Below are positions 22,977 to 38,440 of a stretch of 64,000 nt of DNA, piece by piece. Every line of letters begins with the position of its first letter. Position 1 is the first letter of the stretch. The stretch lies in the NCBI RefSeq assembly GCF_936943645.1, contig NZ_CAKZJO010000082.1, forward strand, positions 1 through 64,000. The letters run 5' to 3'. A program made the position numbers and the translations under genes. Origin of the DNA: an uncultured Bradyrhizobium sp. (GTDB lineage Bacteria > Pseudomonadota > Alphaproteobacteria > Rhizobiales > Xanthobacteraceae). Under the pieces are notes generated by a model that saw nothing but the letters and a program-made list of their open reading frames with translations, had not been told where the DNA came from and searched no databases.

Positions 22977-23102
22977 TCAGCGCTTGGAATCCGGTCCAAG
23001 CCGGCCCGAGCTGGTTTGCCGGTCCGCGTAAGCCAAGGCAGCGGCAAATGCGACGAAGATCGCGACGACGACAACGGTTACCAGCAACGCGTCAGCAGGC
23101 AT
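22977..23102 (-). CDS. Small single-helix membrane protein under an FNR-type promoter
   Basis: A 41-residue product, MPADALLVTVVVVAIFVAFA..., with one membrane helix (about residues 5-27) and a short basic, polar C-terminus. GGGAGGGG directly precedes two ATGs (23105 and 23102); the second is used. Upstream stand a -10-like AATAAT at 23127-23132 and a perfect FNR box centred 41.5 bases before the predicted start point. I recall similar small hydrophobic proteins from related rhizobiales, but I cannot assign a function. The size is like accessory subunits of membrane complexes. The 276 bases downstream to the Crp gene hold nothing else recognisable. Confidence 0.65.
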   Translation of the reverse strand: MPADALLVTVVVVAIFVAFAAALAYADRQTSSGRLGPDSKR

Positions 23103-23154
23103 CATCCCCTCCCGATAATTTGGGGCATTATTTTGCCGCAGCCGACCGACGTCA

Positions 23155-23168
23155 TTGATCGAGATCAA
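23155..23168 (-). promoter_or_regulatory. FNR/FixK box 1, perfect consensus
   Basis: TTGATCGAGATCAA matches the FNR consensus TTGAT-N4-ATCAA exactly. Centre 23161.5; predicted start of transcription near 23120 towards the small membrane protein; -10-like AATAAT at 23127-23132. This is a textbook class II activator position (-41.5). Confidence 0.85.
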
Positions 23169-23195
23169 AAACGTCAGGGCGTCGCGAACGGACTG

Positions 23196-23909
23196 TCAGG
23201 CTGCGGCCAGTGCCTCGGCGCGCGCGGGGTCGAGCAGGCTGATGCCGCCGTGGATGATCTCGATCACGCCGTGACGCTCGAGCTTGGTGAAGGTGCGGCT
23301 GACGGTTTCGATGGTCAGGCCGAGATAGTCGGCGATGTCCTGACGGCTCATCGGAAGCGGAACCGTGTCGGACAACCCTTTGAGCGCGACCAGCCGTTCG
23401 CGCCAGCCAAGCAGAAAGGTCGCAACCTTCTCGTCGGCCGAACGACGGCCGAGCAGCACCATATGGTCGCGCGCCTGGCTCAACTCGCGAATGGCCAGCT
23501 CGTTGATCCGCTTGAGCAGCTGCGGCCGGTCTTCGATAAAGCGGCCGAACGGGGCTTTGGCGAACTGGCACACCGTCACGACGCCGATCGCATCGGCGGA
23601 AAAATTATGCCGGCCGGATATGTTCATCCCCAGGAAATCGCCGGGCAAGGCAAAACCAACGATCTGCCGGCGGCCGTCCGGCAGCAGCTTGTACAACCGC
23701 ATGACGCCTTCGAGAACGTTGTAGAACGAGGTCGTGATGTCCTCCTCGGAGAACACGGTCTCGCCTCCGTCAAAATGAACGCGGCGCCCGAGATGCTCGA
23801 ACTCCGTGAGCTCGGCCGCATTCAACGACGAACAAACCGCCGCACCGCGTACGGCACAATCGCGGCAAAAATGTCCGTTCGGCTCAATCATGACCACGGA
23901 AGGCTTCAT
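23196..23909 (-). CDS. FNR-type oxygen-responsive regulator (FnrN/AadR/FixK1-like)
   Basis: A 237-residue Crp/Fnr regulator with the cysteines needed for an oxygen-labile 4Fe-4S cluster: Cys15, Cys18, Cys26 (C-x2-C-x7-C) plus Cys114. The recognition helix LTIETVSRTFTKLERHGVI has the Glu-x-x-Ser-Arg that reads TTGAT half-sites. Together these place it with FnrN, AadR and FixK1 proteins, which activate genes when oxygen is low. ATG 23909 has GGAG upstream. Eight matching boxes lie in the next 14.5 kb and one lies in its own upstream region, so it (or FixK2, encoded elsewhere) probably controls this island. Confidence 0.9.
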   Translation of the reverse strand: MKPSVVMIEPNGHFCRDCAVRGAAVCSSLNAAELTEFEHLGRRVHFDGGETVFSEEDITTSFYNVLEGVMRLYKLLPDGRRQIVGFALPGDFLGMNISGRHNFSADAIGVVTVCQFAKAPFGRFIEDRPQLLKRINELAIRELSQARDHMVLLGRRSADEKVATFLLGWRERLVALKGLSDTVPLPMSRQDIADYLGLTIETVSRTFTKLERHGVIEIIHGGISLLDPARAEALAAA

Positions 23910-23992
23910 CCACCGCTCCCCGCGCCGGCTGCTCTTGGCCCCAGGCCGAGTCCACCGCGCGGGGGCATTTTACTGCACTGCGCCAAAGCCAA

Positions 23993-24006
23993 TTGACTCA
24001 AATCAA
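23993..24006. promoter_or_regulatory. FNR/FixK box 2, overlapped by another palindrome
   Basis: TTGACTCAAATCAA differs from the FNR consensus by one base. Centre 23999.5; TATTCT at 24028-24033 gives a start near 24040 for the cytochrome gene. A separate perfect palindrome, ACTCAAAT-CAA-ATTTGAGT (23996-24014), overlaps it, so a second protein may compete. The box may also act on the divergent FNR gene. Confidence 0.75.
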
Positions 24007-24061
24007 ATTTGAGTGGCATCCCCGTCTTATTCTGCTCTAGAGTTCGACGGGATCACATTCC

Positions 24062-24379
24062 ATGCTGCAAGGCGCCCTGCGTCACGGCCTGATTGGGCTG
24101 CTTCTGATGACACCTGCGCTGGCGGCCCCGACCGCAGAACAGCGCGGCAAGGCCTTTGCGAAGGCCAATTGCGCCCGCTGCCACGCGATCGATCGCGCCT
24201 CCCGCAGCCCGCTCAAGGGCGCGCCCCCGCTCCGGACCCTGCATCAGCGTTACCCGATCGAGACCCTCGGCGAGGCGCTGGCGGAGGGGATCTATACCGG
24301 TCACGCCGATATGCCGGCCTTCGAGCTCAGTCCGGACCAGATCCACGACCTTCTGTCCTACCTCAAGACGCTGGAATAG
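24062..24379 (+). CDS. Small periplasmic class I cytochrome c
   Basis: A 105-residue protein with a signal peptide (MLQGALRHGLIGLLLMTPALA) and one haem site CARCH at about residue 37. The methionine in HADMPAFEL is the likely sixth ligand, and the C-terminal helix LLSYLKTLE is typical. About 83 residues remain after cleavage, so it is a small soluble electron carrier. It stands divergent from the FNR-type regulator and behind an FNR box, so it is probably made under low oxygen. The haem genes or oxidase it serves are not in the window. Confidence 0.9.
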   Translation: MLQGALRHGLIGLLLMTPALAAPTAEQRGKAFAKANCARCHAIDRASRSPLKGAPPLRTLHQRYPIETLGEALAEGIYTGHADMPAFELSPDQIHDLLSYLKTLE

Positions 24380-24385
24380 ACGGCG

Positions 24386-25489
24386 TTACACCGCCTGGAC
24401 GGTCCAGCCGATCAGCTCCTTGGCGATGCGGGCAAAGGCCGCATCGAAGGCGGCGACCGCAGCGGCCGGCTCGACCTTGTCGAGCTTCTCGCTGGCCTCG
24501 ATCAGGCGCGAGGCAACCACCTTGCCGTTCTTGTCGACGATCCGTGCCGACAGCGCGATATCGACCCTCGCCTCGCCCTCCGTGGCGATCCGAAAGCTGC
24601 GGATATCGATCAGGAGCTGGTAGTCCGCCTGACCGAGATCGCTCGTGCGTAGCGGGGCGTGGGCGATGTCGTAATTCTCGAAGCTGTCAATCAGGCGCGC
24701 CTGGACCAGTTTCGGAATGCTATCGGCCCAGAGGAAGTCGGCAAAGCCCGGCCTGTCCCCGACTGGCGCGAACAGCATGCGCTGGGTCTGCAGCATGGCC
24801 ACCGCGCTCGGCTCGGGGATGGCCAGCGACGCCGAGAGCGTCTTGCCGGCCGGCCCGAGGTTCTGCGGCGTGCGCAGATCGTAGGTAATTTTCTGCGCAG
24901 GGGTGCCGCCGCCGGTCATTTTCTCCAGACCCGCCAGAATGCCGTCGATCTTGCCGGTGTTGCGCGCCAGCCCGTCGGAGAATGTCTTGAAATTCGCAAT
25001 GGTGTCCTTCAGCGGGCCGGAATTGTCCTGAAGCACCGTGTCGACCCGCCGCAGCGCATCGCGCGCGGCCTGCGTCATGCTCTGGCCGGCGCCGGCATCC
25101 GCGATCAAGGTCAGGGGCTCGCTGGACTTGGCGAGGATCACGCCGCCCTCCAATGTCACCACCGGTACGCCGGTCAGGCCTTGGAATTCGAGACCGACTT
25201 TCGTGTCGGAACGGACCGGCGTGGCCGTCGCAACCGAGATCGTCGCATTGACGAAGCGCGGGTTGTCCGGCGCGAGCCCGAGCTGGGTCACCTCACCGAC
25301 GCGAATGCCGTTGAACAGCACACCGGCGCCGACCAAAAGGCCCGGGACCGGCCCCTGGAATTGCACCTGGTAGTTCGTGCGGGGCCCGATGCCGCCGGTG
25401 TTGTTCAGCCAATAGACGAAGCCGAACACCGCGAGGATCGCGGCCAGCACGAAACTGCCGATCAGCACGTAAGGAGCGCGGGTTTCCAT
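24386..25489 (-). CDS. MlaD-domain protein fused to an ABC-type auxiliary (PqiC-like) domain
   Basis: A 367-residue protein. One N-terminal membrane helix (residues about 8-29) precedes an MCE/MlaD domain (NYQVQFQGPVPGLLVGAGVLFNGIRVGEV). From about residue 205 a second domain begins, LRTPQNLGPAGKTLSASLAI, whose AMLQTQRMLFAP and LIDSFENY pattern matches the ABC-type transport auxiliary family usually found as a separate lipoprotein (PqiC-like). Here it is fused to the MCE domain and anchored by the same helix. It is the last gene of a three-gene lipid transport operon with ATPase and permease, probably moving phospholipids between the membranes. Confidence 0.85.
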   Translation of the reverse strand: METRAPYVLIGSFVLAAILAVFGFVYWLNNTGGIGPRTNYQVQFQGPVPGLLVGAGVLFNGIRVGEVTQLGLAPDNPRFVNATISVATATPVRSDTKVGLEFQGLTGVPVVTLEGGVILAKSSEPLTLIADAGAGQSMTQAARDALRRVDTVLQDNSGPLKDTIANFKTFSDGLARNTGKIDGILAGLEKMTGGGTPAQKITYDLRTPQNLGPAGKTLSASLAIPEPSAVAMLQTQRMLFAPVGDRPGFADFLWADSIPKLVQARLIDSFENYDIAHAPLRTSDLGQADYQLLIDIRSFRIATEGEARVDIALSARIVDKNGKVVASRLIEASEKLDKVEPAAAVAAFDAAFARIAKELIGWTVQAV

Positions 25490-25492
25490 GTC

Positions 25493-26260
25493 TTATCTCA
25501 TTTCGTGTTGCAGCATCTGCGAGCGCTTGCCGTGGAAATAGGCGCGCACCCAGGGATGCTCGGATTGCAGCAATTCGCGCATCGGGCCGATCGCCACGAT
25601 CTTGCCGTCGGCGAGCGCGGCGACGCGGTCGCAGACCGTGGTCAGGCTTGCGAGGTCGTGGGTGACCATGAACACGGTCAGCCCCAGCGTCTTTTGCAGG
25701 GTCTTGATCAGCGCGTCGAAATCGCCCGCGGCGATCGGATCGAGGCCGGAGGTCGGCTCATCCAGGAACAGGATCGGCGGATCGAGCGCGAGCGCGCGGG
25801 CCAAGGCCACGCGCTTGGTCATGCCGCCGGACAGCTCTGACGGATATTTGTCGGCGTCCTGAGCACGCAAGCCGACCATTTCGAGCTTGGCGATCGCGAT
25901 CTCGTCCATCAGCTCCTGCGACAGGACAAGATTTTCCCGCAAGGGAAACTGGACGTTCTGGCGGACCGTCAGTGAGGAGAACAGCGCGCCCTGCTGGAAC
26001 AGGATGCCCCATATCGTGGCCGCGCCCCGACCGTGGCCGCCGGTGGGCTGCCCCATGACTTCGATGGTCCCGCTCCGGCGCGGAATGAGGCCGATGATGG
26101 TGCGCATCAGGACCGACTTGCCGCCGCCGGATGCCCCCACCAGTCCAAGGATCTCGCCGCGGCGGACGTCGAGCGACAGATGGTCGAGCACGGTCTGGCG
26201 GCCGAAGCCGACAACGAGGTCCCGGACGCGGATCGCGAACTGGTCTTGCAATGCGTCCAT
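25493..26260 (-). CDS. MlaF-like ABC transporter ATP-binding protein
   Basis: About 255 residues with a complete nucleotide-binding domain: Walker A GASGGGKS, Q-loop FQQGALFSSL, signature LSGGMTKR, Walker B ILFLDEPTSGLDP and switch histidine VTHDL. SSLTVRQNVQFPLRE after the Q-loop is usual for MlaF. It powers the permease encoded just upstream. GTG 26266 overlaps the permease stop, and ATG 26260 six bases later is an equal alternative; I give the ATG. The MlaD gene follows after three bases. Confidence 0.9.
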   Translation of the reverse strand: MDALQDQFAIRVRDLVVGFGRQTVLDHLSLDVRRGEILGLVGASGGGKSVLMRTIIGLIPRRSGTIEVMGQPTGGHGRGAATIWGILFQQGALFSSLTVRQNVQFPLRENLVLSQELMDEIAIAKLEMVGLRAQDADKYPSELSGGMTKRVALARALALDPPILFLDEPTSGLDPIAAGDFDALIKTLQKTLGLTVFMVTHDLASLTTVCDRVAALADGKIVAIGPMRELLQSEHPWVRAYFHGKRSQMLQHEMR

Positions 26261-26262
26261 CG

Positions 26263-27399
26263 TCACATTCCGATCGAGGCAAAGAAGACCGCGAACAGGC
26301 CGTCGAGCACGATCACCAGGAAGATCGACTTCACCACCGACGTCGTGGTCTGCCGTCCGAGCGACTCCGCGCTGCCCTTGACGCGCAATCCCTCGCTACA
26401 GGCCACGATCCCGATCACCAGCGCCATGAACGGCGCCTTCAGGATGCCCACCTCGAAATGCGTGACGGAGATGGCCTCGTGTAGCCGCGCGATGTAGATC
26501 GCCGGGCCCATGTCGCCGTAAAACTGCGCGACGAGACCGCCGCCATAGAGCGCTGCAATCGAACCGATGAAGGTGAGGATGGGCAGCGCGATGACCAGGG
26601 CCGCAACGCGCGGCAGGATCAGGACGTCGACGGGATCGAGTCCCATGGTCGAGAGTGCATCGATCTCCTCGCGCATCTTCATCGAGCCCAGCTCGGCGGT
26701 GTAGGCGCTGCCCGACCGGCCGGCGACCATGATGGCGACAATCAACACGCCGAGCTCGCGCAGCACCAGGATGCCGACCATGTCGACGGTATAGGACTCC
26801 GCGCCGAATCTGCGGAAATGGAAGAAGCCCTGCTGTGCGATGATGGCGCCGATCAGGAAGGTGATCAGCGCGACGATGGGGATCGCCTGCCAGCCGATGC
26901 GGTAGAGCTGATAGACCAGCGAGGTCAGCCGCAGCGAACGCGGCCGGCGCAGCACGCCGATGATCGCCATGAACAATGCGCCGAGCATCTGCAGGAAGAT
27001 CGTGATGTCTTCCCGCGCGCCAACGGTAGATTTGCCGAGATCGCCGAGCCTCGCCAGCACCGGATTGGGCGCAGCCGCCGGAGCCGGTGTGTGGCGGTTG
27101 ACCTGGCGCACCTCGTCCAGCAGCCCAGTAAAATGATCGGCGACGCCGACGAATTCGGCCGATCTGCCCGAGGATGCAGCCCTGCGCGACAGTTTTTCCA
27201 GGACCCAGGCGCCGAGCGTGTCGAGCGCGCTGACGCCCGACATATCAAGGGTGACGGCGCGCGAGCGATCGACGTCGGCGCCGACAGACCGCGACAAGGT
27301 CTCGAGCGTGACCACATTCGCGGCGGTCCAGGGCCCTTCGGGGCGCAGGTTCAGCACGTCGCCGGACGGCGTCGCGAGCAACAGCGGTTCGTGGTTCAC
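26263..27399 (-). CDS. MlaE-like permease with N-terminal STAS domain
   Basis: About 378 residues. Residues 1-100 form a STAS-like domain (VTLDMSGVSALDTLGAWVLE), the part that in E. coli Mla is the separate MlaB protein. The rest is the MlaE permease with the conserved ELGSMKMREEIDALSTMGLDP loop that docks on the ATPase. GTG 27399 has GAGG seven bases upstream and is preferred to TTG 27420. An FNR box centred at 27475.5 and a -10-like TAGAAA at 27442-27447 lie in front, so this lipid transport operon appears to be turned on at low oxygen. Confidence 0.88.
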   Translation of the reverse strand: MNHEPLLLATPSGDVLNLRPEGPWTAANVVTLETLSRSVGADVDRSRAVTLDMSGVSALDTLGAWVLEKLSRRAASSGRSAEFVGVADHFTGLLDEVRQVNRHTPAPAAAPNPVLARLGDLGKSTVGAREDITIFLQMLGALFMAIIGVLRRPRSLRLTSLVYQLYRIGWQAIPIVALITFLIGAIIAQQGFFHFRRFGAESYTVDMVGILVLRELGVLIVAIMVAGRSGSAYTAELGSMKMREEIDALSTMGLDPVDVLILPRVAALVIALPILTFIGSIAALYGGGLVAQFYGDMGPAIYIARLHEAISVTHFEVGILKAPFMALVIGIVACSEGLRVKGSAESLGRQTTTSVVKSIFLVIVLDGLFAVFFASIGM

Positions 27400-27468
27400 G
27401 CTTCCACCTCGTCGGGACAATCGGTCCCCATTCAGACGGCATTTCTAGGCCAGCATATGGCGGCCGGC

Positions 27469-27482
27469 TTGACCTGTCTCAA
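27469..27482 (-). promoter_or_regulatory. FNR/FixK box 3 (mla-like operon)
   Basis: TTGACCTGTCTCAA fits TTGA-N6-TCAA. Centre 27475.5; TAGAAA at 27442-27447 on the minus strand puts the start near 27435, about -40.5. Confidence 0.65.
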
Positions 27483-27502
27483 GCGCGGAGCTGCCCTGCC
27501 GA

Positions 27503-27516
27503 TTGACGCAAATCAA
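27503..27516 (+). promoter_or_regulatory. FNR/FixK box 4 (DUF883/holin pair)
   Basis: TTGACGCAAATCAA, centre 27509.5. TAGGCT at 27539-27544 gives a start near 27551, exactly 41.5 bases downstream. It faces box 3 across 20 bases. Confidence 0.7.
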
Positions 27517-27573
27517 GCGCGATCGCGTGCGCGGGCCCTAGGCTTGCGTTTGTTCAATCGGGATATCAGGTCC

Positions 27574-27849
27574 ATGTTCAACAGCGACAGGATGAGCGAA
27601 GAATTGCGCGCGCTGAAGGTTGACGTGACGCGCTTGCTGAGCACCGCCGGCGAGGAGATGTTCGAGAGCTCGAAAGATCGCGCCGAAGCGCTCGCCGACC
27701 AGATCAGGGCCGCGCTGACCGAGCTCGGCGAAACCGTCGAGGAAGAGCAGGAGCAGCTGCAGGGCCTCATTGCGGACCGCCCGATCACCTCGCTCGCCTC
27801 CGCCTTCGCACTCGGCGTGGTCGTCGGCTTCATGCTGAGGAGGCATTAG
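27574..27849 (+). CDS. DUF883/ElaB-YqjD-like membrane-anchored protein
   Basis: A 91-residue protein: a charged amphipathic helix (residues about 5-65, rich in Glu, Leu and Ala, probably coiled coil) followed by a C-terminal hydrophobic anchor LASAFALGVVVGFMLRRH. This layout is that of ElaB/YqjD, inner-membrane proteins that in E. coli bind ribosomes in stationary phase; whether that holds here is unknown. The open frame extends far upstream but ATG 27574 starts the family-like region. The holin-like gene starts directly after its stop. Confidence 0.82.
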   Translation: MFNSDRMSEELRALKVDVTRLLSTAGEEMFESSKDRAEALADQIRAALTELGETVEEEQEQLQGLIADRPITSLASAFALGVVVGFMLRRH

Positions 27850-28350
27850 GTGAATACCGAGAATGTGGTCAAACATCTGCGCGTGCTGTGGCGCACCGAC
27901 AGGATCATCGCGGACATCCGGCTGCGCCACCTGCTGATCGGCCTCGGCCTGCGCGCCTTTGCGGCCTTGATCGCAGCATTCGGCCTGCTGATGCTGGAGC
28001 TGTCGGCCTATTTCGCACTGGTCCAGATCTGGAGCGCGATTGCCGCCGCGGCCATCCTCGGCGCCGTCAATTTCGCCATCGCGGCCACGCTCTTCGCCAT
28101 CGCCAGCCGCGCTCCGTCCGGCCGCGACATTGAGCTCGCCAGTGAAATTCACGATGCGTCCATCGAAGCCCTTCAGCTCGAGGCGCGTGCACTCCAGGCC
28201 CAGGTGTCAGGCGCGGTGCACCATCCGCTCAGCACGATCGTGCCGGTGCTGGTGCCGCTGATCGCAATCATCGTGAAGAATTTGCGGTCGACGGCCAAGT
28301 CATCGACCAAGACGTCCGCCACAGCAGATGCGGCCGAAGCGCGCTCCTGA
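27850..28350 (+). CDS. Phage holin family-like (YqjE-type) membrane protein
   Basis: A 166-residue protein with two adjacent membrane helices (about residues 32-57 and 60-85) and a third hydrophobic segment (TIVPVLVPLIAIIVKNL), ending in a Ser/Thr/Ala-rich tail. The pairing with a DUF883 gene mirrors yqjD-yqjE. The GTG start follows the previous stop immediately and has GAGGAGG upstream. It is probably a stress-related membrane protein rather than a lysis factor; no phage genes are near. Confidence 0.7.
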   Translation: MNTENVVKHLRVLWRTDRIIADIRLRHLLIGLGLRAFAALIAAFGLLMLELSAYFALVQIWSAIAAAAILGAVNFAIAATLFAIASRAPSGRDIELASEIHDASIEALQLEARALQAQVSGAVHHPLSTIVPVLVPLIAIIVKNLRSTAKSSTKTSATADAAEARS

Positions 28351-28359
28351 CGGGCGTGC

Positions 28360-31053
28360 TCAGAGCTTCAATTTGACGTCGCAGATGTCGGGTTCGGCCG
28401 GATCCGGCTTGACCTCGAAGCCGAGGTGCCGGCACATCTCGAGCATCACGGTGTTTTCCTGGAGCACGTCGCCCGAGATGACTTTCAGCCCTTCCGACTT
28501 GGCATAGTTGATGATGAGCTGCATGAGGGCCCAGCCGAGCCCCCTGCCCTTGAGATCGGAGCGCAGCAGGATCGCGTATTCACCGGTCTCGTAGATCGAG
28601 TCCGAATGAAGCCGGACCACGCCGACCATCTCGCCGGTGGCTTCATCGAATGCGATGAAGGCCATCGCGCGCGCATAGTCGAGCTGGGTCAGACGCGCGA
28701 TGAATTCGTGGGTGAATTCCTTCATTGGCGCGAAGAAGCGCAGGCGAAGGTCGTGTGGCGTGACGTGACGCAGGAATTCGTGGATGGTCGGCTCGTCCTC
28801 AGGCCGCATCGGCCGCACGAAGATACGCCAGTCGTCCTTGAGCTTGAGGCGGCGCTCCCATTGCGAGGGATAGGCGCGAACCGCGAAATTGGCCGGGCCG
28901 GAGCCGACGAACTTCCGTTGCGGCGCCCCGACCGCGACGCGGGCATCAACCGCGGTCACGCCGGTTTCGTCCGCGAGCAGCGGATTGATGTCGAATTCGC
29001 GGATCTCGGGAATATCGGCCGCCATCTGTGCCAGCTTGACCAGCACCATGGCCACGGCGTCCTGCTTGACCTCGGGCACGTCGCGATAGGCCTTCAGCAG
29101 CCGCGACACGCGGGTGCGGTCGATCAGATCGCGGGCGAGCTGCAAGTCCAGCGGCGGCAACGCAAGCGCCTTGTCGTTGATGATCTCCACCGCCGTGCCG
29201 CCGCGGCCGAACACCACGACGGTGCCGAAAGTGGGATCGTCGGCGAGGCCCAGAATCAGCTCGCGCGCCTTTGCCTTGACGACCATGGCCTGCACGATGA
29301 CGCCGCCGATGCGCGCTTCCGGGCGCAGCTTCTTCGCACGCGCCATGATGCCCGTGGCCGCCCCTCGGACCGCATCGGGCGTGGTTAGATTGAGCACGAC
29401 GCCGCCGACATCGGATTTGTGGATAATGTCCCGAGACATGATCTTCAGCACGACGGTGCCGCCCTGCGCGAAGATTTCGTTCGCATAAGCTACCGCCTGC
29501 TCGACATCGGCTGCCGCATAGGTCGGCACCATCGCGATGTCGTAAGCTTCGAGCAGGTTCTTGATCTCGACTGGCTCGAGCCATTCACGGCCGTCGGCGA
29601 TCGCGGCGGTGACGATCTGCCTCGCGCCTCGGGCGTCGGGAACGAACGTGTCAGGCATCGCTGGAGGAACCTGACTTAGCTCCTCCACCACTTCGCGGTG
29701 GCGGACCAGATGCATGAAGCCGCGCACGGCGTCGTCCTCGGTCGGATAGTTCGGCATGCCGGCGCCGGACAGCGCCTGAATGATGCCCTGATCGGCGCCG
29801 ACCCAGGCGGCCAGCACCGGCTTCGCCCAGCGGCGGTGCTGCTCGCGATATTTTGCGACGCGCTCCGTCACGGTCGCGGCGATCTCGGTAGCCGAGGCAA
29901 TCGCCGTCTGCACGTTGAGAACCAGAACCGCGTCATTGTCGGGATCGGCCAGCAGCACCTCCAGCGCCGCCGCATAGCGCGCAGCATCCGCATCGCCCAC
30001 GATGTCGACGGGATTTGCACCGGACCAGGTCGGCGGCAACGCCGCATCCAGCTTCTTGCGCGCCTCCGCCGAGATGGTCGCCGGAATCCCGCCGAGTTCG
30101 ACCAGTCGATCGACGGCGAGCACGCCGATGCCGCCGCCATTGGTCAGGATGGCAAGACGCTTTCCGGTCGGCGATTCGACGCGGCCGAGCGTCTCGGCAC
30201 AATCGAACAGCTCACGCAGGTCTGAGACGCGCAAAACGCCCGCGCGGCGGAACGCCGCGTCATAGACGGCGTCGGCGCCGGCGAGCGCGCCGGTATGCGT
30301 GGCCGCGGCTTTGGCACCTTGCGCCATGCGGCCGGACTTCACCACCACGACAGGCTTCACGCGCGCGGCCGCGCGCGCCGCCGACATGAACTTGCGTGCA
30401 TCCTTGATGGACTCGATATAGAGCAGAATCGCGCGGGTCTTGTGATCCATCGCGAAATAGTCGAGCAGATCGGCAATGTCGACGTCGATCTGATCGCCGA
30501 TCGAGACGATGCCGGAGAAGCCGACGCCGCGCTGCGCCGCCCAATCGACCATGCCGGCGGCGATCGCCCCCGATTGCGAGATCAGCGCCAGACTGCCCGC
30601 CCCCGGCATATGCGCGGCAAAGCTGGCATTCAGGCTGACTCCGGGCATCATGATGCCGAGACAGTTCGGTCCGATCAGCCGCATGCCGTACTTGCCGGCC
30701 GCGGTGATGGCAGCATCGTGCAGAGATCCCGGTCCGTGGCCAAGCCCGGCCGAAACGATCAAGGCGCCTGCCGTGCCGCGCCGTCCGGCCTGGTCGATGA
30801 TGCCGGGGATTTCGCGCGCCGGCGCGGTGATGATCACGAGCTCGGGCACGAAGTTCAGGGCGTCCAGACTCTTCCCCGCCGCGATGCCGCCGATTTCGGC
30901 ATGGCGTGGATTGACGAGGCCAAACCGCCCCTTGAATTCAGCCTTGCGAATGTTCTCCAGAACCGCGCGTCCCACCGAGACCGGGCGAGCGCTCGCGCCG
31001 ACAAGCGCAACCGAACGCGGTGCCAGCAGGTTATTCAGACGATAGGTTGACAT
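28360..31053 (-). CDS. ADP-forming acyl-CoA synthetase fused to a GNAT acetyltransferase
   Basis: An 897-residue protein. Residues 1-470 carry the CoA-binding and ligase alpha parts (SVALVGASARPVSVGRAVLENI; GPNCLGIMMPG; ISQSGAIAAGMVDWA), about 480-710 the ATP-grasp beta part (VVLKIMSRDIIHKSDVGGV), and about 735-890 a GNAT domain (RPMRPEDEPTIHEFLRH). This is the order of the Pat/PatZ lysine acetyltransferases that control acetyl-CoA synthetase. Unlike what I recall of PatZ, His253 in ATHTGALAGAD, the phospho-histidine position of active ADP-forming synthetases, is kept. It lies behind the universal stress protein gene in one probable FNR-driven operon. Confidence 0.85.
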   Translation of the reverse strand: MSTYRLNNLLAPRSVALVGASARPVSVGRAVLENIRKAEFKGRFGLVNPRHAEIGGIAAGKSLDALNFVPELVIITAPAREIPGIIDQAGRRGTAGALIVSAGLGHGPGSLHDAAITAAGKYGMRLIGPNCLGIMMPGVSLNASFAAHMPGAGSLALISQSGAIAAGMVDWAAQRGVGFSGIVSIGDQIDVDIADLLDYFAMDHKTRAILLYIESIKDARKFMSAARAAARVKPVVVVKSGRMAQGAKAAATHTGALAGADAVYDAAFRRAGVLRVSDLRELFDCAETLGRVESPTGKRLAILTNGGGIGVLAVDRLVELGGIPATISAEARKKLDAALPPTWSGANPVDIVGDADAARYAAALEVLLADPDNDAVLVLNVQTAIASATEIAATVTERVAKYREQHRRWAKPVLAAWVGADQGIIQALSGAGMPNYPTEDDAVRGFMHLVRHREVVEELSQVPPAMPDTFVPDARGARQIVTAAIADGREWLEPVEIKNLLEAYDIAMVPTYAAADVEQAVAYANEIFAQGGTVVLKIMSRDIIHKSDVGGVVLNLTTPDAVRGAATGIMARAKKLRPEARIGGVIVQAMVVKAKARELILGLADDPTFGTVVVFGRGGTAVEIINDKALALPPLDLQLARDLIDRTRVSRLLKAYRDVPEVKQDAVAMVLVKLAQMAADIPEIREFDINPLLADETGVTAVDARVAVGAPQRKFVGSGPANFAVRAYPSQWERRLKLKDDWRIFVRPMRPEDEPTIHEFLRHVTPHDLRLRFFAPMKEFTHEFIARLTQLDYARAMAFIAFDEATGEMVGVVRLHSDSIYETGEYAILLRSDLKGRGLGWALMQLIINYAKSEGLKVISGDVLQENTVMLEMCRHLGFEVKPDPAEPDICDVKLKL

Positions 31054-31119
31054 GAAAGCAAATACGCCCGGTCGGCGGCGGTTCCGATGGTTGACGATCA
31101 GTCTGGACGAATGGCGAGC

Positions 31120-31959: not shown

Positions 31960-32006
31960 CGGGATTCTCCTTGGCCGCCACAATAGGCCGGCTTTCGTCG
32001 AGCCGC

Positions 32007-32020
32007 TTGATCCTCGTCAA
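32007..32020 (-). promoter_or_regulatory. FNR/FixK box 5 (universal stress protein operon)
   Basis: TTGATCCTCGTCAA, centre 32013.5. TATTGT at 31980-31985 on the minus strand gives a start near 31973 and a leader of about 14 bases that still contains the AAGGAG site. Confidence 0.65.
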
Positions 32021-32048
32021 CCCAGGGGAACTTCGGCCAGAACAGACG

Positions 32049-32062
32049 TTGACTGGCATCAA
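32049..32062 (+). promoter_or_regulatory. FNR/FixK box 6 (alcohol dehydrogenase operon)
   Basis: TTGACTGGCATCAA, centre 32055.5. The nearest -10-like sequence, GATAAT at 32088-32093, gives a start near 32100 (about -44). Confidence 0.65.
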
Positions 32063-32123
32063 GGACTGGCCGCCCGGTTGTTCTACGGATAATCCAGTCG
32101 GAGCGGTTGCCCCGGAGAAACTC

Positions 32124-33107
32124 ATGCGTGCGATGGTGTTGCCGGCCCCACGAACGCGGCTCGAGATAGAGGAGCGGCCCGACCCGATACCCGGCGAGGG
32201 TCAGCTCCGGGTGAAGATCAGCGCCTGCGGCGTATGCCGGACCGACCTTCATCTCGTCGATGCCGAGCTGCCCGATATCCGCTATCCGATCGTGCCCGGC
32301 CACGAGATCGTCGGCCGGGTCGATCTCGTGGGTCCGAATGTCACAACGCATGCGCCAGGCGATCGGGTCGGCATTCCCTGGCTCGGCTACACCTGCGGCC
32401 ATTGTCGCTTCTGCCGGGACGGCATGGAAAACCTCTGTGATGCGCCGCTGTTCACGGGCTACACGCGCGATGGCGGCTATGCGACCCACACCATCGCCGA
32501 CGCGCGCTACGCCTTTCCCCTCGGTGAGGACGGCGACGACGTGGAGATCACCCCTCTGCTGTGCGCGGGGCTGATCGGCTGGCGCTCGCTGGTGCTGGCT
32601 GGCCCTGCCGAACGGCTCGGCCTCTACGGTTTTGGCGCGGCCGGCCACATCATCGCGCAGGTCGCGCGCTGGCAAGGGCGATCCGTCCATGCCTTCACGC
32701 GGCGCGGCGATGCTGCCGCACAAGGCCTTGCCCGTCGTCTCGGCGCGGTCTGGGCCGGGGCATCCGACGAGGTGCCCGACGAGCCGCTCGACGCCGCCAT
32801 CATCTACGCACCATCTGGCGAACTTGTCCCGGCCGCGCTGCGCGCAGTCCGCAAAGGCGGTCGCGTCGTCTGCGCCGGCATTCACATGACCGACATTCCA
32901 GGCTTTCCCTATGACCTGCTCTGGCAGGAACGGCAGCTGGTCTCGGTCGCCAACCTGACCCGGCAGGACGGCCTGGATTTTCTTAAAGTCGCGCCGCAAG
33001 CCGGCGTCCGCACCGAAACGACGGCATTTCCGCTTGATCAGGCCAACGACGTCCTGGACATGCTGCGAGCCGGCCAGATTCTCGGCGCGGCCGTGCTGAC
33101 GCCCTGA
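32124..33107 (+). CDS. Zinc-dependent alcohol dehydrogenase
   Basis: A 327-residue medium-chain dehydrogenase. The catalytic zinc ligands are Cys38 (CGVCRTDLH) and His60 (PGHEIVG) with a later Cys in LLCAGLIGW; the structural zinc uses Cys91, Cys94, Cys97 and Cys105 (CGHCRFCRDGMENLC). The nucleotide loop LYGFGAAGHIIAQVA lacks one of the usual glycines. The best fit is an AdhA-like alcohol/aldehyde dehydrogenase. ATG 32124 is used; the longer frame overlaps the FNR box region. With a box upstream and a kinase and CHAD gene downstream, it probably serves fermentative or redox balance at low oxygen. Confidence 0.88.
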   Translation: MRAMVLPAPRTRLEIEERPDPIPGEGQLRVKISACGVCRTDLHLVDAELPDIRYPIVPGHEIVGRVDLVGPNVTTHAPGDRVGIPWLGYTCGHCRFCRDGMENLCDAPLFTGYTRDGGYATHTIADARYAFPLGEDGDDVEITPLLCAGLIGWRSLVLAGPAERLGLYGFGAAGHIIAQVARWQGRSVHAFTRRGDAAAQGLARRLGAVWAGASDEVPDEPLDAAIIYAPSGELVPAALRAVRKGGRVVCAGIHMTDIPGFPYDLLWQERQLVSVANLTRQDGLDFLKVAPQAGVRTETTAFPLDQANDVLDMLRAGQILGAAVLTP

Positions 33108-33130
33108 AGGTGCTTTCGGATGCTCGTTCC

Positions 33131-34693
33131 ATGACAGATGAAATGGCGACCCAGGAGCGGATCTTTCGGACGCTGACCGACCATCCCGGCGTGACGCAGA
33201 TCGACACGCATGGCGCCGCAGTATTCCTCGACGGGATGCGCGCGCTGAAGATCAAGCGTGCCGTGAAGTTTCCTTTCCTCGACTATTCGACGCTCGAGAA
33301 ACGCAAGGCCGCTTGCGAGGAGGAAATCAGGATCAACCGGCCGTTGGCGCCGCAGATCTATCATCGCGTCGTCGCGATCACGGAAGAGCCGGATGGGTCG
33401 GTGCAGGTCGACGGTCCCGGTCGGCCGATCGAGTACGCAGTCGATATGTCGCGTTTCGACGAAAGCAGGACGCTGGATCATCTGGCAAAGGCCGGGCCGC
33501 TGGATGCGAAACTGGCCTCGGCTGCCGCCGACGCGATTGCGGCTTCGCACGCGGCGGTGATTCACGCCGAGGGAGAAGCATGGGTCGCGTCCATCCCTGG
33601 CTTGATCGACGGCAACAGTCTCGGCCTGCGGGCTGGCGGCCGCTTCAACGCTGACGAGATCGACAAGCTCGGCAAAGCTTCCCACGAGGCATTCCTGCGC
33701 CTGCGTTCTCTGCTCGCAGAGCGCGGCCGGCAAGGCTTTGTGCGCCGCTGCCATGGCGATCTGCATCTGGCAAACATCGTTTTGCTCGATGACCGGCCCG
33801 TGCTGTTCGACGCCATCGAGTTCGACCCGCAGATGGCAACCGTCGACGTGCTCTATGATCTCGCCTTCACGCTGATGGATCTGCTGCATCATGATCAACC
33901 CAGCGCCGCCAACATCGTCCTGAACCGCTATCTCGCCGCGACGTCTGCCGACAATCTCGACGCGCTCTCGTTTCTGCCGCTGTTCATGTCGATACGGGCC
34001 GCGATCCGCGCCCAGGTGACTCTGGCACGGCTGAAGCCACCGCACTCCGATGACCTCGCCATTCTGGATGAGGCCCAACGCTATTTCGACCTTGCCAGGA
34101 CGCTGATCCATCCGGCCGCTCCGCGCCTGATTGCCGTGGGCGGCTTGTCAGGCACCGGCAAGACGGTTCTGGCGCAAACACTCGCGCCTCTCGTCGCACC
34201 GCCGCCCGGAGCCGTCGTGCTGCGCAGCGACGTCGTCCGCAAGCAGATGTTCGGCGTCGAGGACACCCACCGCCTGCCGCCATCCGCCTACACGCCGGAG
34301 CATGCGGCCCGTGTTTACGATACGCTCGCTCAGCGGGCCCGGCGGGTGCTGGCGCAAGGGCATTCGGCTGTCATCGACGGCGTGTTCGCGCGCGAGGACG
34401 AGCGGGACGCGATCGCCGCACTGGCGCGCGAGCGCAACGTGCCGCTGAACGGCCTGTTCCTGGTCGCCGACCTCAAGACCCGGCAGATGCGGATCGGAAG
34501 CCGCCGGGGCGACGCATCCGACGCCACGCAAGAGGTTGCCGCGCTGCAAGAGCACTATAATATCGGCCATGTCGGTTGGGCGACCGTCGATGCATCCGGG
34601 ACGCAAGAGCAGACGCTCGAGAGCTGCAGGGACGCGATCGCTGACGGCAAACAGGGCAATCTGATTGGCGCGGGCAAAGATGGCGCGACCTAG
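33131..34693 (+). CDS. Aminoglycoside phosphotransferase-like kinase fused to an AAA/zeta-like ATP-binding domain
   Basis: About 520 residues in two halves. Residues 1-320 hold a kinase-like fold with the catalytic loop CHGDLHLANIVLLDDRPVLFD and the metal aspartate in DAIEFDP. From about 330 a P-loop domain follows, with Walker A GGLSGTGKTVLAQTL and a later DGVFAREDERDAI segment, as in small ATP-dependent kinases. Proteins of this two-domain type are widespread in bacteria near stress genes; the substrate is unknown and drug resistance should not be assumed. ATG 33131 is chosen; GTG 33110 is possible, and neither has a clear ribosome-binding site. The end overlaps the CHAD gene. Confidence 0.8.
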   Translation: MTDEMATQERIFRTLTDHPGVTQIDTHGAAVFLDGMRALKIKRAVKFPFLDYSTLEKRKAACEEEIRINRPLAPQIYHRVVAITEEPDGSVQVDGPGRPIEYAVDMSRFDESRTLDHLAKAGPLDAKLASAAADAIAASHAAVIHAEGEAWVASIPGLIDGNSLGLRAGGRFNADEIDKLGKASHEAFLRLRSLLAERGRQGFVRRCHGDLHLANIVLLDDRPVLFDAIEFDPQMATVDVLYDLAFTLMDLLHHDQPSAANIVLNRYLAATSADNLDALSFLPLFMSIRAAIRAQVTLARLKPPHSDDLAILDEAQRYFDLARTLIHPAAPRLIAVGGLSGTGKTVLAQTLAPLVAPPPGAVVLRSDVVRKQMFGVEDTHRLPPSAYTPEHAARVYDTLAQRARRVLAQGHSAVIDGVFAREDERDAIAALARERNVPLNGLFLVADLKTRQMRIGSRRGDASDATQEVAALQEHYNIGHVGWATVDASGTQEQTLESCRDAIADGKQGNLIGAGKDGAT

Positions 34694-35651
34694 CACGACC
34701 TCGACGGCCGCTCGCGCCACGCCGGCGGGGCGGCGAAATGCCCTGCCCGGCCGCCTGAGCCCCGGCATGGCCTGCGATACGGCGTTCCGGATCATCGCGC
34801 GCCGTCACCTCGCGGCCGTTCTCGCCCAGCATGACGGCACCTGCCGCGGCGACCCCGACGCGCTGCATCGGATCCGGATCGCACTGACGCATCTGCGCAC
34901 CGCCATCCGCTTCTTCTCGCCGATGGTCGACGACGCCCTGCGGCCGGATGTCTGGACCGAACTGAAATGGCTGAACAGCCAGCTCGGCATGGTCAGGGAT
35001 CTCGATGTGGCGATCGAGCGGGTCATCGCCGAGAGCGACGGTGAACTCACAGTGGTCGCCGAGCTCCAGCACTGGGACGAGAAACGCACCGAGAGCCACC
35101 GCATGCTGGCACGTGCGCTGCAGTCGGCCCGCTATCGCCGCCTCGTCGAGCAGACTTCGGCCTGGATCGAGAGCGGCCCCTGGTCGACCCGGCGCAGCAA
35201 GGAAGCCATCCGACTGCGCCGCTCGACGCTCGCTGAGCATGCAACGGCGAGGCTGACCGAATGGGAAACGACGCTACTCAAGAAAGCGCGAAAGCTCCGC
35301 AGGCTCGACGTCGAAAAGCGCCACAAGCTGCGTCTTCTCAACAAGCGGATGACCTATTCGATCGAATCGCTCCAGGACCTGTTCGCCGAGGACGCCTTGA
35401 AGAAGCAGCAGTCCATCCTCAAGAAATTGCGCAAGGCGCAACGGTCGCTCGGACAATTGAACGACGATGCTCGTGGACAGGCGTTGGCGGCGTCGCTGAA
35501 CGGCGCCGGCCTCGATGCCAGCCATCGCTTCCTCGACCGCAAGCGGGAAAAGAAGCTGTTGCGAGCGGCCTCGGCGGCCTACCGCAAACTGGACAAGACC
35601 AAGCCTTTCCGCTCCTCCGATCTCGCGCCAAATTCCGAGCCGGAAGCTTAG
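34680..35651 (+). CDS. CHAD domain protein
   Basis: About 323 residues, all-helical and very rich in Lys and Arg (for example KKARKLRRL and RKREKKLLRA). It shows the conserved-histidine pattern of CHAD domains (ALHRIRIALTHLRTAIRFF; GMVRDLDVAIE). CHAD proteins bind polyphosphate and have been found on polyphosphate or PHA-related granules in Ralstonia. Here the gene converges on the PHA synthase gene with a four-base overlap, which fits a storage-granule role. ATG 34680 overlaps the kinase gene by 14 bases, so the two are coupled. Confidence 0.85.
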   Translation: MARPSTTSTAARATPAGRRNALPGRLSPGMACDTAFRIIARRHLAAVLAQHDGTCRGDPDALHRIRIALTHLRTAIRFFSPMVDDALRPDVWTELKWLNSQLGMVRDLDVAIERVIAESDGELTVVAELQHWDEKRTESHRMLARALQSARYRRLVEQTSAWIESGPWSTRRSKEAIRLRRSTLAEHATARLTEWETTLLKKARKLRRLDVEKRHKLRLLNKRMTYSIESLQDLFAEDALKKQQSILKKLRKAQRSLGQLNDDARGQALAASLNGAGLDASHRFLDRKREKKLLRAASAAYRKLDKTKPFRSSDLAPNSEPEA

Positions 35652-37501
35652 GTGTGGACGTAGTCCCCCGGCGCATCTGGCAGGCCCGCAGCGCCTCCAA
35701 CGCCGATCTGGGGTGGATCGCAGGGCGCGCCGGAGCGCGCCGCCAGCCATTTGGCCCATTCCGGCCACCACGACCCTTCAACGTGCGGAGCCAGCTTCAG
35801 CCATTCGTCCGGACCGACATAGGGCGCGTCCTCCGCCTTGGTCAGCACCTGATAGCTGTGGCCGGGCTCCTCCGGAGGCGCAACGACACCGGCATTGTGG
35901 CCGCCGCTCGTCAACAGGAACGTCACGTCGGCATCGACCTGATAGTGGATCTTGTAGACGGATCGCCACGGCGCCACGTGATCGGCGAGCGTGCCGACCA
36001 CGAACATCGGCGCATGGATATCGGACAACGAAACGCTGCGGCCATCGACGTGGTAGCGCCCCTCGGCCAGATCGTTGTCGAGGAACAGCTTTCGCAGATA
36101 TTCCGAGTGCATGCGATACGGCAGCCGGGTTGCGTCCGCGTTCCACGCCATCAGATCGTTCAGCGGCGCGCCCTCGCCCATCAGGTAATCGTGCGACAGG
36201 CGGGACCAGATCAATTCGTTGGAACGCAGCAGCTGAAAGGCACCGGCCATCTGCGTCGTGTCGAGATAGCCGCGCTGCCACATCATGTCTTCGAGAAAGG
36301 CAACCTGGCTTTCATTGATGAAGAGCGTCAGCTCACCGGCCTCGGTGAAGTCGGTCTGGGCGGCAAGGAGCGTGACGGTGCCGAAGCGGTTGTCACCGTC
36401 GCGCTCCATCGCAGCGGCGGCGATCGACAGCAAGGTGCCGCCAAGACAATAGCCGAGCGCGTGGATCTTTTGGCCCGGTACGATCAGGCCGATCATGTCC
36501 AGCGCGGCCATGACGCCCAGCCTGCGATAATCGTCGAATGCGAGATCACGATCCCTCGCATCCGGGTTGCGCCAGGAGATCGCAAACACCGTGAAGCCCT
36601 GGCCGGTCAGATACTTGACCAGCGAGTTCCGCGGCGACAGATCGAGGATGTAGTATTTCATGATCCAGGCCGGCACGATCAGGATCGGCTCGGGCCGGAC
36701 CTGCGCCGTGGTCGGATGGTATTGAATCAGCTCGATCAGCTCGTTGCGGTAGACGACCTTGCCGGGCGACGCCGCCACCGTCTTGCCGACCACGAACTGC
36801 GCGTCATCAGCCAATCTTGCGTTGGAGAGCAGGCGCATCAGGTCGCTGCACCAGTTCTGCCAGCCGAAGACGAAATTCTCCCCGCCACTCTGGAACGCCT
36901 TTTCCAGAACCTTCGGATTGGTCGCTGCGAAATTCGACGGCGCCAGCATGTCGAGCGTCTGGCGCACCGAGAACTCGACGATGGCTTCATTGGCGTGCGA
37001 CACGCCGCGCACGCCGGTCGTAGCATCGTGCCACCAGCGTTCTCCGAGCAGGAATGCCTGCGCCAGCAGATTGAACGGCGCTGTCTCCCATTGAGGCCCG
37101 CTGAAGCGGCGATCGCGCGCCTGCGGCTGAATCACGGACCACGGCTTCTGCTCCGGCGACGTCGCATGCGCGACAGCTTCGGCCAGCCGGCCGGTGTCGC
37201 GCAGGATGTTGCGGGAAATCTCCATCTGGCGCTGCGGCGCCGCAGCGAGATGCGAACTCCAGTCGAGCCAGGCGAGCGACAAGGCCAGCGGCGAAATGCC
37301 GCCCGTGAATCGCGCCAGCATCGCGCGAAACGCGCGGTCGAGGGGATATGGCTCCGATACAGGCAAGGGATCGGCGGCAGCCGGCATCCCTGCAAGCTTC
37401 TCGGAACTCACTGTCGGGGCTTCGAGACCCGCGGCGGGATTGACGGGAAGAGCCTGCACTGCCGGCTCCTCGGCCCGTGGAAATATCTGCACGACGCTCA
37501 T
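35648..37501 (-). CDS. phaC: Class I poly(3-hydroxyalkanoate) synthase
   Basis: A 617-residue PHA synthase. An N-terminal PhaC domain (WLDWSSHLAAAPQRQMEI) precedes the alpha/beta-hydrolase part. The lipase-box-like GYCLGG holds the nucleophile Cys352. ADHVAPWRS and SGGHNAGVV supply the aspartate and histidine of the triad. It polymerises hydroxyacyl-CoA into storage polyester on granules. No phaA, phaB, phaP or phaR gene is adjacent, so this is likely one of several synthases. An FNR box centred at 37575.5 with TATCCT at 37542-37547 lies upstream, pointing to low-oxygen induction. Confidence 0.93.
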   Translation of the reverse strand: MSVVQIFPRAEEPAVQALPVNPAAGLEAPTVSSEKLAGMPAAADPLPVSEPYPLDRAFRAMLARFTGGISPLALSLAWLDWSSHLAAAPQRQMEISRNILRDTGRLAEAVAHATSPEQKPWSVIQPQARDRRFSGPQWETAPFNLLAQAFLLGERWWHDATTGVRGVSHANEAIVEFSVRQTLDMLAPSNFAATNPKVLEKAFQSGGENFVFGWQNWCSDLMRLLSNARLADDAQFVVGKTVAASPGKVVYRNELIELIQYHPTTAQVRPEPILIVPAWIMKYYILDLSPRNSLVKYLTGQGFTVFAISWRNPDARDRDLAFDDYRRLGVMAALDMIGLIVPGQKIHALGYCLGGTLLSIAAAAMERDGDNRFGTVTLLAAQTDFTEAGELTLFINESQVAFLEDMMWQRGYLDTTQMAGAFQLLRSNELIWSRLSHDYLMGEGAPLNDLMAWNADATRLPYRMHSEYLRKLFLDNDLAEGRYHVDGRSVSLSDIHAPMFVVGTLADHVAPWRSVYKIHYQVDADVTFLLTSGGHNAGVVAPPEEPGHSYQVLTKAEDAPYVGPDEWLKLAPHVEGSWWPEWAKWLAARSGAPCDPPQIGVGGAAGLPDAPGDYVHT

Positions 37502-37568
37502 GGCTGAATGGTCCCAAGGGCTGCTGTTCTACGTCGGCGGAAGGATATGGCGAGGCTTCCCACAAGCG

Positions 37569-37582
37569 TTGAGCTGCATCAA
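37569..37582 (-). promoter_or_regulatory. FNR/FixK box 7 (phaC)
   Basis: TTGAGCTGCATCAA, centre 37575.5. TATCCT at 37542-37547 on the minus strand gives a start near 37535, about -40.5. Confidence 0.6.
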
Positions 37583-37633
37583 ATCCGGGCGCGTATCACA
37601 ATTGCTTCATCAGGACAGACGGGCTTCGTCCCA

Positions 37634-37647
37634 TTGACCTGAGTCAA
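37634..37647 (+). promoter_or_regulatory. FNR/FixK box 8 (CBS-BON gene)
   Basis: TTGACCTGAGTCAA is a perfect palindrome of the form TTGAC-N4-GTCAA, centre 37640.5. TAGTTT at 37669-37674 gives a start near 37681, about -40.5. Confidence 0.7.
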
Positions 37648-37711
37648 GCCGCACCTCGATACCCGGGCTAGTTTGCCCGCATTGAAATTCGACAAGCCAG
37701 CGGAGTTGTCC

Positions 37712-38440
37712 ATGCGCGCCCACCAGATCATGACCCGGTCGGTCATCTCGGTTACCCCCGACACCAGCATCGTCGAGGCGGCGAATATCATGCTCAAGCG
37801 GCATGTCAGCGGTCTCACGGTCGTCGACGATAGCGGCAAGCTGGTCGGCGTCGTCTCCGAAGGAGATTTCATCCGCCGCAGCGAAATCGGCACCGGGCGC
37901 AAGCGTGGGCGCTGGCTGCGGTTCATCCTCGGTCCGGGCAAATCCGCCAGCGACTTCGTCCATGAGCACGGCCGCAAGGTCGCGGAGGTGATGACCGACT
38001 CGCCCGTGACCATCACGGAGGACACGGCGCTTGCCGAGATCGTCGACCTCATGGAGCGCAACAACGTGAAGCGGCTGCCCGTGGTCCGCGGCGACAAGGT
38101 CGTCGGGATCGTATCGCGGGCCAATCTGCTGCAGGCGGTGGCAGGGCTTGCGCGTGAAGTGAAGGATCCGACAGCGGACGACGACCACATTCGCGGCCGC
38201 ATCATCGACACCATGGAGAAGAACGACTGGTGCCCGTTCGGGCTGAACGTCATCGTCCGTGACGGCATCGTTCACCTCAGCGGCGTCATCACCGAAGAGC
38301 GCACGCGGCAGGCCGCGATCGTCGCTGCGGAGAACGTCGACGGCGTGAAGAAGGTGCACGACCATCTGTGCTGGGTCGACACCATGTCGGGCATCTACCT
38401 GAATTCGCCCGAGGACGACGAGCTCTCCAAGGCGAGCTGA
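37712..38440 (+). CDS. CBS-pair and BON domain protein
   Basis: A 242-residue protein. Two CBS motifs (residues about 1-60, MRAHQIMTRSVISVTPDTSI, and about 90-145, VAEVMTDSPVTITEDTALAE) form a Bateman module that senses adenine nucleotides. The C-terminal BON domain (about 165-225, NVIVRDGIVHLSGVITEE) usually binds phospholipid or protein surfaces. There is no signal peptide. ATG 37712 has GGAG eight bases upstream. Divergent from phaC, each with its own FNR box. It may be an energy-sensing regulator of a membrane process; the partner is unknown. Confidence 0.88.
   Translation: MRAHQIMTRSVISVTPDTSIVEAANIMLKRHVSGLTVVDDSGKLVGVVSEGDFIRRSEIGTGRKRGRWLRFILGPGKSASDFVHEHGRKVAEVMTDSPVTITEDTALAEIVDLMERNNVKRLPVVRGDKVVGIVSRANLLQAVAGLAREVKDPTADDDHIRGRIIDTMEKNDWCPFGLNVIVRDGIVHLSGVITEERTRQAAIVAAENVDGVKKVHDHLCWVDTMSGIYLNSPEDDELSKAS

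Follow-up and report, generated by a model that had tools for sequence, protein, structure and literature searches.

A FixK/FNR-box island of an uncultured Bradyrhizobium, orthologous to the fixK1-phaC2 block of Bradyrhizobium diazoefficiens, and a predicted small membrane protein behind its first box

Introduction

The closest described counterpart of the locus studied here is the fixK1-phaC2 block of Bradyrhizobium diazoefficiens, bll6060-blr6074, which belongs to the FixK2 regulon of that organism. We analysed a stretch of 64,000 nucleotides (hereafter the window; contig NZ_CAKZJO010000082.1 of assembly GCF_936943645.1) from an uncultured Bradyrhizobium sp., in which positions 22,977 to 38,440 hold an island of genes with FixK/FNR-type boxes. 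Judged by gene order, products and the identity of published boxes, on which the matching of locus tags rests rather than on the USDA110 sequence itself, this island is not new but orthologous to the fixK1-phaC2 block.

The FixK2 box has been published as TTGA/C-N6-T/GCAA. The papers below are cited for the passages and tables consulted. Table 2 of PMC9104804 lists TTGACCTGTCTCAA at -105 for bsr6066, TTGATGCAGCTCAA at -81 for phaC2 (bll6073) and TTGAGCTGCATCAA at -143 for blr6074, and reports that deletion of fixK2 lowers the expression of bsr6066 93-fold, of blr6067 21-fold, of bll6073 28-fold and of blr6074 91-fold. Microoxic induction was described for bll6063, bll6064, bll6065, bll6068, bll6069, bll6073 and blr6074, with 6069, 6073 and 6074 given as direct FixK2 targets (PMC6515984). 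FixK2 dependence was assigned to blr6070, blr6071 and blr6074 (PMC2908626), bll6061 (fixK1) was marked as FixK2-regulated (PMC4070659), and in another mutant blr6062, bll6061, bll6069, bll6073 and blr6074 rose together with the fix genes (PMC5017801). The alphaproteobacterial core FixK regulon (PMC2908626, Table 1) also contains a zinc alcohol dehydrogenase, a kinase, a class I cytochrome c and a CBS protein; it is however a list of ortholog sets, unnamed hypothetical proteins included, whereas the window holds a physical island. In some Rhizobiales phbC was predicted to be under FnrN/FixK (PMC4999443). Both the oxygen control of the region and its link to carbon storage are thus already in print. 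Very short membrane proteins tied to oxygen limitation or stress, such as CcoM of the cbb3 oxidase and YohP, are known as well, and in this respect a small open reading frame (ORF) of the island resembles them.

Results and Discussion

The box island and its relation to the published block

Scanning of the window for TTGA-N6-TCAA returned eight boxes, all of them within the island, where 0.35 would be expected in the whole window; none of 100 shuffled windows contained eight or more. All eight starts listed in the initial annotation of this DNA were recovered, and so was its arrangement of one box pair in each of three divergent gaps (at 27.5, 32.0 and 37.6 kb). The description of the island as compact also held. 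Across the 7.28 Mb of the genome (120 contigs) the pattern occurs 113 times, against 22 for its control, the pattern read backwards, and among the 108 boxes placed by pattern searches (the remaining five all lie outside the window) the runner-up stretch of 14.5 kb, on contig C53, holds four. With the rate taken from the genome outside the island, the Poisson chance of eight boxes in 14.5 kb is 8e-11, the interval having been picked post hoc. Other clusters of boxes in the same genome were seen on C53 (82666-115867), C43 (24415-42772) and C40 (21707), with boxes on C43 and C40 that are identical over 14 letters to the window boxes 32049 and 23993.

The products encoded in the island and their order are those of bll6060-blr6074. 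Moreover, the published boxes of bsr6066, phaC2 and blr6074 are the window boxes 3, 7 and 7 (box 7 being read on either strand), identical in sequence and in distance. Two differences from the published description were noted: in the window boxes accompanied by a conserved minus-10 element also precede mlaEFD and a small, apparently unnumbered ORF, and boxes 4 and 8 suit bsr6066 and blr6074 better than the distal boxes listed for them do.

Relatives were collected by searching named genomes with the dehydrogenase, and the best 80 of 170 loci were considered; the nearest belong to Bradyrhizobium. Among the 20 closest loci at least eight boxes were present in 16, seven in three and two in one, and the gene order was mostly that of the window. 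The locus with two boxes is that of B. vignae, in which much of the block is lost. The more distant strain BTAi1 retains seven boxes and most of the gene order. In the farther loci some of the same kinds of genes occur rearranged, in part with boxes, and many are without them. Certain arrangements deserve mention in their own right. A Hyphomicrobiales metagenome-assembled genome (MAG; L053, 1-13213) has seven boxes in 13 kb, where relatives of usp, adh, CoA ligase, cytochrome c, CBS-BON and fixK1 stand in a different order, and a Rhodanobacter MAG (L069, 1-20978) has seven boxes in 21 kb, where only adh and usp relatives were detected. In two Bradyrhizobium loci, that of B. vignae (L011) and L072, the CoA ligase and dehydrogenase parts are retained but the fixK1-to-holin part and phaC2/CBS-BON are missing; usp is present in the former and none was detected in the latter.

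Nine predicted promoters on eight boxes

The promoter geometry was counted on both sides of each box in the window and in 16 related loci with eight boxes, a set of 17 sequences which omits four loci with fewer boxes (L011, L014, L019 and L020) and all loci from L021 onward; since the sequences are related, the counts are not independent. The expected sides were fixed from gene direction and aligned flanks, the flanks having been viewed first and the counting done afterwards. On the expected side a hexamer beginning with TA was found 20-22 nucleotides from the box edge in 17, 17, 17, 17, 17, 16, 17 and 17 of the 17 sequences (box 2 left, box 2 right, then boxes 3 to 8). On the ninth side, that of box 23155, TA was found in none, and AATAAT, AACAAT or CATAAT occupied the place in all 17. 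The seven opposite sides, some of them partly occupied by the partner box, had a TA hexamer in 0-2 of the 17, and random window positions in 3.5%. Gap-free column identity in blocks of five columns was 0.72-0.89 on the expected side versus 0.50-0.71 on the opposite one, the latter value being lowered by insertions between paired boxes.

All eight boxes are palindromic, and the minus-10 elements are in the register of a class II FixK/FNR promoter with its box at about -41. The eight boxes would accordingly make up nine box-plus-minus-10 promoters, each pair facing outward, with transcription starts predicted about 41 bp from the boxes. The initial annotation had seen a minus-10-like hexamer for seven of the eight boxes; this geometry is conserved and was slightly understated, and the assumption of one promoter per box did not stand. 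Since box 23993 is flanked by conserved minus-10 elements on both sides (TAAAAT for fixK1, TATTCT for the cytochrome), a single box appears to be common to the divergent fixK1 and cytochrome promoters.

The same geometry bears on which box serves which gene. In the orthologues of bsr6066 and blr6074 the nearer boxes, 4 and 8, are in register, thus the distal boxes published for these genes are likelier to belong to mlaE and phaC2, and the two published assignments probably concern the adjoining gene. The mlaEFD genes, having a conserved promoter of their own, are likely to be a direct target of the regulon. Box 23155 is predicted to drive an ORF of 41 residues, an assignment which is new here. 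In the case of adh, 40 loci carry a Bradyrhizobium or Bradyrhizobiaceae label, and 36 of them have a box within 130 nucleotides (including L072, where the sole box near adh is the farther one, on the usp side), versus two of 40 other loci; the link between adh and the box does not reach far beyond Bradyrhizobium.

The regulator acting on the boxes

A gene group on contig C84 encodes a FixK-type protein, a receiver protein, a receiver-LuxR regulator and a PAS histidine kinase, together with ccoN, which has its own box. From their domains and place we take the FixK-type protein, the response regulator and the kinase of this group to be FixK2, FixJ and FixL. It is highly probable that the fixK1 island is under direct FixK/FNR-type control via FixLJ-FixK2. 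At low oxygen FixL would phosphorylate FixJ, which would activate fixK2, and FixK2 would bind the eight boxes and, from about 41 bp upstream, drive transcription from nine starts. The genes switched on would be those of the cytochrome c, the Mla-type lipid transporter, the small membrane proteins, the universal stress protein with the CoA ligase, the alcohol dehydrogenase operon, the polyhydroxyalkanoate (PHA) synthase, the CBS-BON protein and fixK1 itself. FixK1, with its four FNR-type cysteines, can probably bind the same boxes and adjust the response. The cascade, the FixK2 dependence and the microoxic induction are carried over by analogy from the published work on the orthologues; the operons, the binding in this strain, the role of FixK1 and the start sites are what we infer for the window. 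The low-oxygen control proposed earlier is supported by the conserved promoter geometry and by the published microoxic and fixK2 data on the orthologues, and the proposed link between oxygen and carbon storage is right in outline, though already known for the orthologous region.

The initial annotation had pointed out that the island encodes its own Cys-cluster FNR protein. This protein is FixK1. From 61 loci searched, 60 homologues were aligned, and all of them keep C15, C18, C26 and C114; three of these cysteines are N-terminal, and FixK2 is without the N-terminal set in the alignment. A model in which FixK1 mainly runs the island, sensing oxygen directly through an Fe-S cluster as FNR does and independently of FixLJ-FixK2, would suit these cysteines, the FNR-like recognition helix of FixK1 and the position of fixK1 beside its supposed targets. 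We consider it unlikely, since fixK1 is itself faced by a box whose minus-10 is conserved, its orthologue has been described as a target of FixK2 (PMC4070659) and, according to Table 2 of PMC9104804, four island genes are strongly down in the fixK2 mutant. Being itself a reported target, FixK1 is probably not the main activator; it is probably a target and possibly a modulator, and FixK2, encoded elsewhere in the genome, is the likelier main activator. The genome contains 12 matches to FixK1, itself included, and a third FixK-type copy lies on C53. The recognition helix E-TVSR is common to FixK1, FixK2 and this third paralogue, so all three could read one box.

That some boxes respond, via NnrR/DNR-type regulators, to signals of nitric oxide or denitrification and not to oxygen would be in line with the statement in PMC2908626 that the predicted targets of FNR, FixK and DNR are virtually identical. 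The same source gives a different motif for NnrR, and the orthologues respond to microoxia and to the loss of fixK2 (PMC6515984, PMC9104804), which makes this explanation very improbable.

Several points weigh against control by FixLJ-FixK2 as formulated above. The evidence of expression comes from orthologues, not from this strain, and DNA alone cannot separate FixK2 from FixK1 or from the third FixK-type protein. In the relevant part of PMC6515984 neither bll6063-6065 nor bll6068 is given as a direct target of FixK2, and the bll606x/blr606x tags sought are absent from the main text of the B. japonicum start-site paper PMC4842269. Furthermore, phaC2 and bll6069 are also up in a phaR mutant (PMC10888616), thus PhaR appears to be a further input and oxygen not the sole one.

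A predicted small membrane protein behind box 23155

The near edge of box 23155 lies 53 nucleotides upstream of the ATG of the small ORF. The median ratio of nonsynonymous to synonymous substitutions (dN/dS) of this frame is 0.15 (1185 of 1225 pairs, 50 sequences, first 33 codons), a substitution pattern which argues that the frame is protein-coding. It contains one strongly hydrophobic stretch, and the product is probably a single-helix membrane protein. No family was found for it in Pfam, NCBIfam or PHROG. It might be supposed that the 41-codon frame is a leader or a small RNA and that box 1 really serves the downstream CRP-like gene, whose orthologue bll6060 shows about 2-fold microoxic induction (PMC6515984). 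However, besides the low dN/dS, the differences fall at the third codon position in 589 cases versus 218 and 157 at the others, and in other genera, with different neighbours, the box and the frame persist; we regard this possibility as very unlikely.

Homologues, searched for without use of the box, were detected in 108 of 146 Bradyrhizobium genomes. In a sample of 198 genomes from the family 85 have one, among them six Bradyrhizobium, and in a sample of 249 genomes from the order 25 have one at E 1e-5, among them five Bradyrhizobium and two members of the same family. Of 70 Bradyrhizobium loci, the window included, 69 have a canonical box no more than 150 nucleotides upstream of the small ORF, versus 10 of 617 background windows; these loci are the 30 best matches and 40 hand-picked from the rest, and the 70th has TTGATTCAGCGCAA in place of the canonical box. 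In the other genera of the family a box was found within 200 nucleotides in 22 of 24 loci (background 12 of 258). The 19 loci from the order search, one of them of the same family, gave a canonical box in 16, a one-letter variant in two and none in one, the last being unconvincing as a homologue. The nearest-fitting box stands at -59 to -88 of the start codon, with a second box at -42 in locus L219.

Of 94 loci, 81 have an FNR/FixK1-type gene beside the small ORF (Bradyrhizobium 69 of 70, other genera 12 of 24; flanks of 600 or 1500 nucleotides). When fixK1 or a close relative was counted at E <1e-60, the 146 Bradyrhizobium genomes comprised 101 with both the small protein and fixK1, seven with the small protein only, 11 with fixK1 or its relative only and 27 with neither, co-occurrence being uncorrected for relatedness. 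Seven of the 11 were inspected: in six the box was lost along with the frame, and in one (G066) the box is still present and the body of the frame is gone.

The link to the cbb3 oxidase is modest and weaker than that to FNR-type genes. With ccoN counted at E <1e-96 (130 genomes), 67 of the 198 genomes have both it and the small protein, 18 have the small protein without ccoN, 63 have ccoN without the small protein and 50 have neither (Fisher p 8e-4, uncorrected for relatedness); ccoN is therefore not a required companion, and the two genes lie at most 10 kb apart in at least six of the 67 genomes. In two loci of the same family (L175 and L176) a cytochrome c homologue and an FNR-type gene are near the small ORF and ccoN is about 2 kb off, so that island genes and the cbb3 locus are joined.

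A relation to CcoM or another solved small oxidase subunit was looked for by profile search and not found: the small-ORF profiles gave no sequence match to a solved oxidase chain, the sole match up to E 10 being the antenna protein 8hw1 (E 0.19 and 1.2), in a search which is weak for short proteins and with a library in which the presence of CcoM is unconfirmed.

The tags Bdiaspc4_31950 and 31965 correspond to bll6060 and bll6063 (PMC6515984), and as the gap between them fits only fixK1 and blr6062, the small ORF is probably unannotated in the model strain. No printed description of the protein was found in the literature covered, passages of PMC2908626, PMC4999443, PMC3050613, PMC4634722 and PMC5082802 included, although hypothetical proteins of published FixK/FnrL regulons may be members under other names. 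On balance we favour the view that these proteins form an undescribed family of about 30-47 residues (M-P-x-D...W-x-D-x-Q-T), wired to FNR/FixK boxes across the order, often beside an FNR-type regulator gene and sometimes near cbb3 genes. They would be a dedicated low-oxygen part, perhaps a cbb3 accessory or a membrane partner of the circuit; that they work alongside FNR-type regulators or cbb3 respiration is our guess.

Coordinates of the features

The gene content given in the initial annotation (cytochrome c, lipid transport, universal stress protein, alcohol dehydrogenase, CHAD protein and PHA synthase) was confirmed by Pfam/NCBIfam scans (Table 1). For adh the TIGR02822 scan and the locus search used a query from 32121, one codon before the ATG at 32124. 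The minus-10 positions listed for boxes 3, 4, 5, 7 and 8 were confirmed on checking.

Table 1. Genes, boxes and minus-10 elements of the island, in window positions (TA, hexamer beginning with TA among the 17 sequences; aa, amino acids).
Feature	Position	Strand or place	Basis
CRP-like gene (bll6060 orthologue)	21972-22700	downstream of small ORF	CRP-like by Pfam/NCBIfam scans
Small ORF, 41 aa, starts MPADALLVTVVVVAIFVAFAAALAYADRQT...	22980..23102, stop 22977-22979	-	downstream of fixK1; start/stop codons checked
Minus-10-like AATAAT of small ORF	23127..23132	-	AATAAT/AACAAT/CATAAT 17/17
Box 1, predicted small-ORF promoter	23155..23168	-	box scan; box in 69 of 70 Bradyrhizobium loci
fixK1 (bll6061 orthologue), CRP/FNR regulator, C15, C18, C26, C114	23196..23909	-	Pfam
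Minus-10 TAAAAT of fixK1	23967..23972	-	17/17
Box 2, fixK1 and cytochrome	23993..24006	both directions	conserved minus-10 each side
Minus-10 TATTCT of cytochrome gene	24028..24033	+	TATTCT 16/17, TACTCT 1/17
Cytochrome c (blr6062 orthologue)	24062..24379	+	PF00034
MlaD/MCE protein with ABC_trans_aux domain (bll6063)	24386..25489	-	PF02470, PF03886
ABC ATPase, MlaF-like (bll6064)	25493..26266	-	PF00005
MlaE permease with STAS domain (bll6065), start codon uncertain	26263..27420	-	PF02405
Box 3, predicted mlaEFD promoter, minus-10 TAGAAA 27442-27447	27469..27482	-	TA 17/17
Box 4, predicted bsr6066 promoter, minus-10 TAGGCT 27539-27544	27503..27516	+	TA 17/17
bsr6066 orthologue, 91 aa	27574..27849	+	family matches weak, below cut-off
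blr6067 orthologue, holin-like membrane protein	27850..28350	+	PF07332 below cut-off
CoA ligase with GNAT domain (bll6068)	28360..31053	-	Pfam/NCBIfam scans
Universal stress protein, usp (bll6069)	31120..31959	-	PF00582
Box 5, predicted usp promoter, minus-10 TATTGT 31980-31985	32007..32020	-	TA 17/17
Box 6, predicted adh promoter, minus-10 TACGGA 32084-32089	32049..32062	+	TA 16/17
Zinc alcohol dehydrogenase, adh (blr6070)	32124..33107	+	TIGR02822 above cut-off
APH-like + AAA_33 protein (blr6071)	33110..34693	+	Pfam/NCBIfam scans
CHAD protein (blr6072)	34665..35651	+	PF05235
PHA synthase phaC2 (bll6073)	35648..37501	-	PF07167
Box 7, predicted phaC2 promoter, minus-10 TATCCT 37542-37547	37569..37582	-	TA 17/17
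Box 8, predicted CBS-BON promoter, minus-10 TAGTTT 37669-37674	37634..37647	+	TA 17/17
CBS-BON protein (blr6074)	37712..38440	+	PF00571, PF04972

Conclusions

The initial observation was sound and a little stronger than claimed, and its reading was right in outline, though known for the orthologous region. What the analysis adds for the island is a clearer picture of the most box-dense part of an already described oxygen regulon: an assignment of boxes to genes, a shared divergent box and the lipid transporter operon as a likely direct target. The least expected result, the small protein family bound to a box, matters more than this map. Since a barely recognisable peptide keeps an oxygen switch at a nearly constant distance across many genera, it is probably needed at low oxygen, and this can be tested in an established soybean symbiont.

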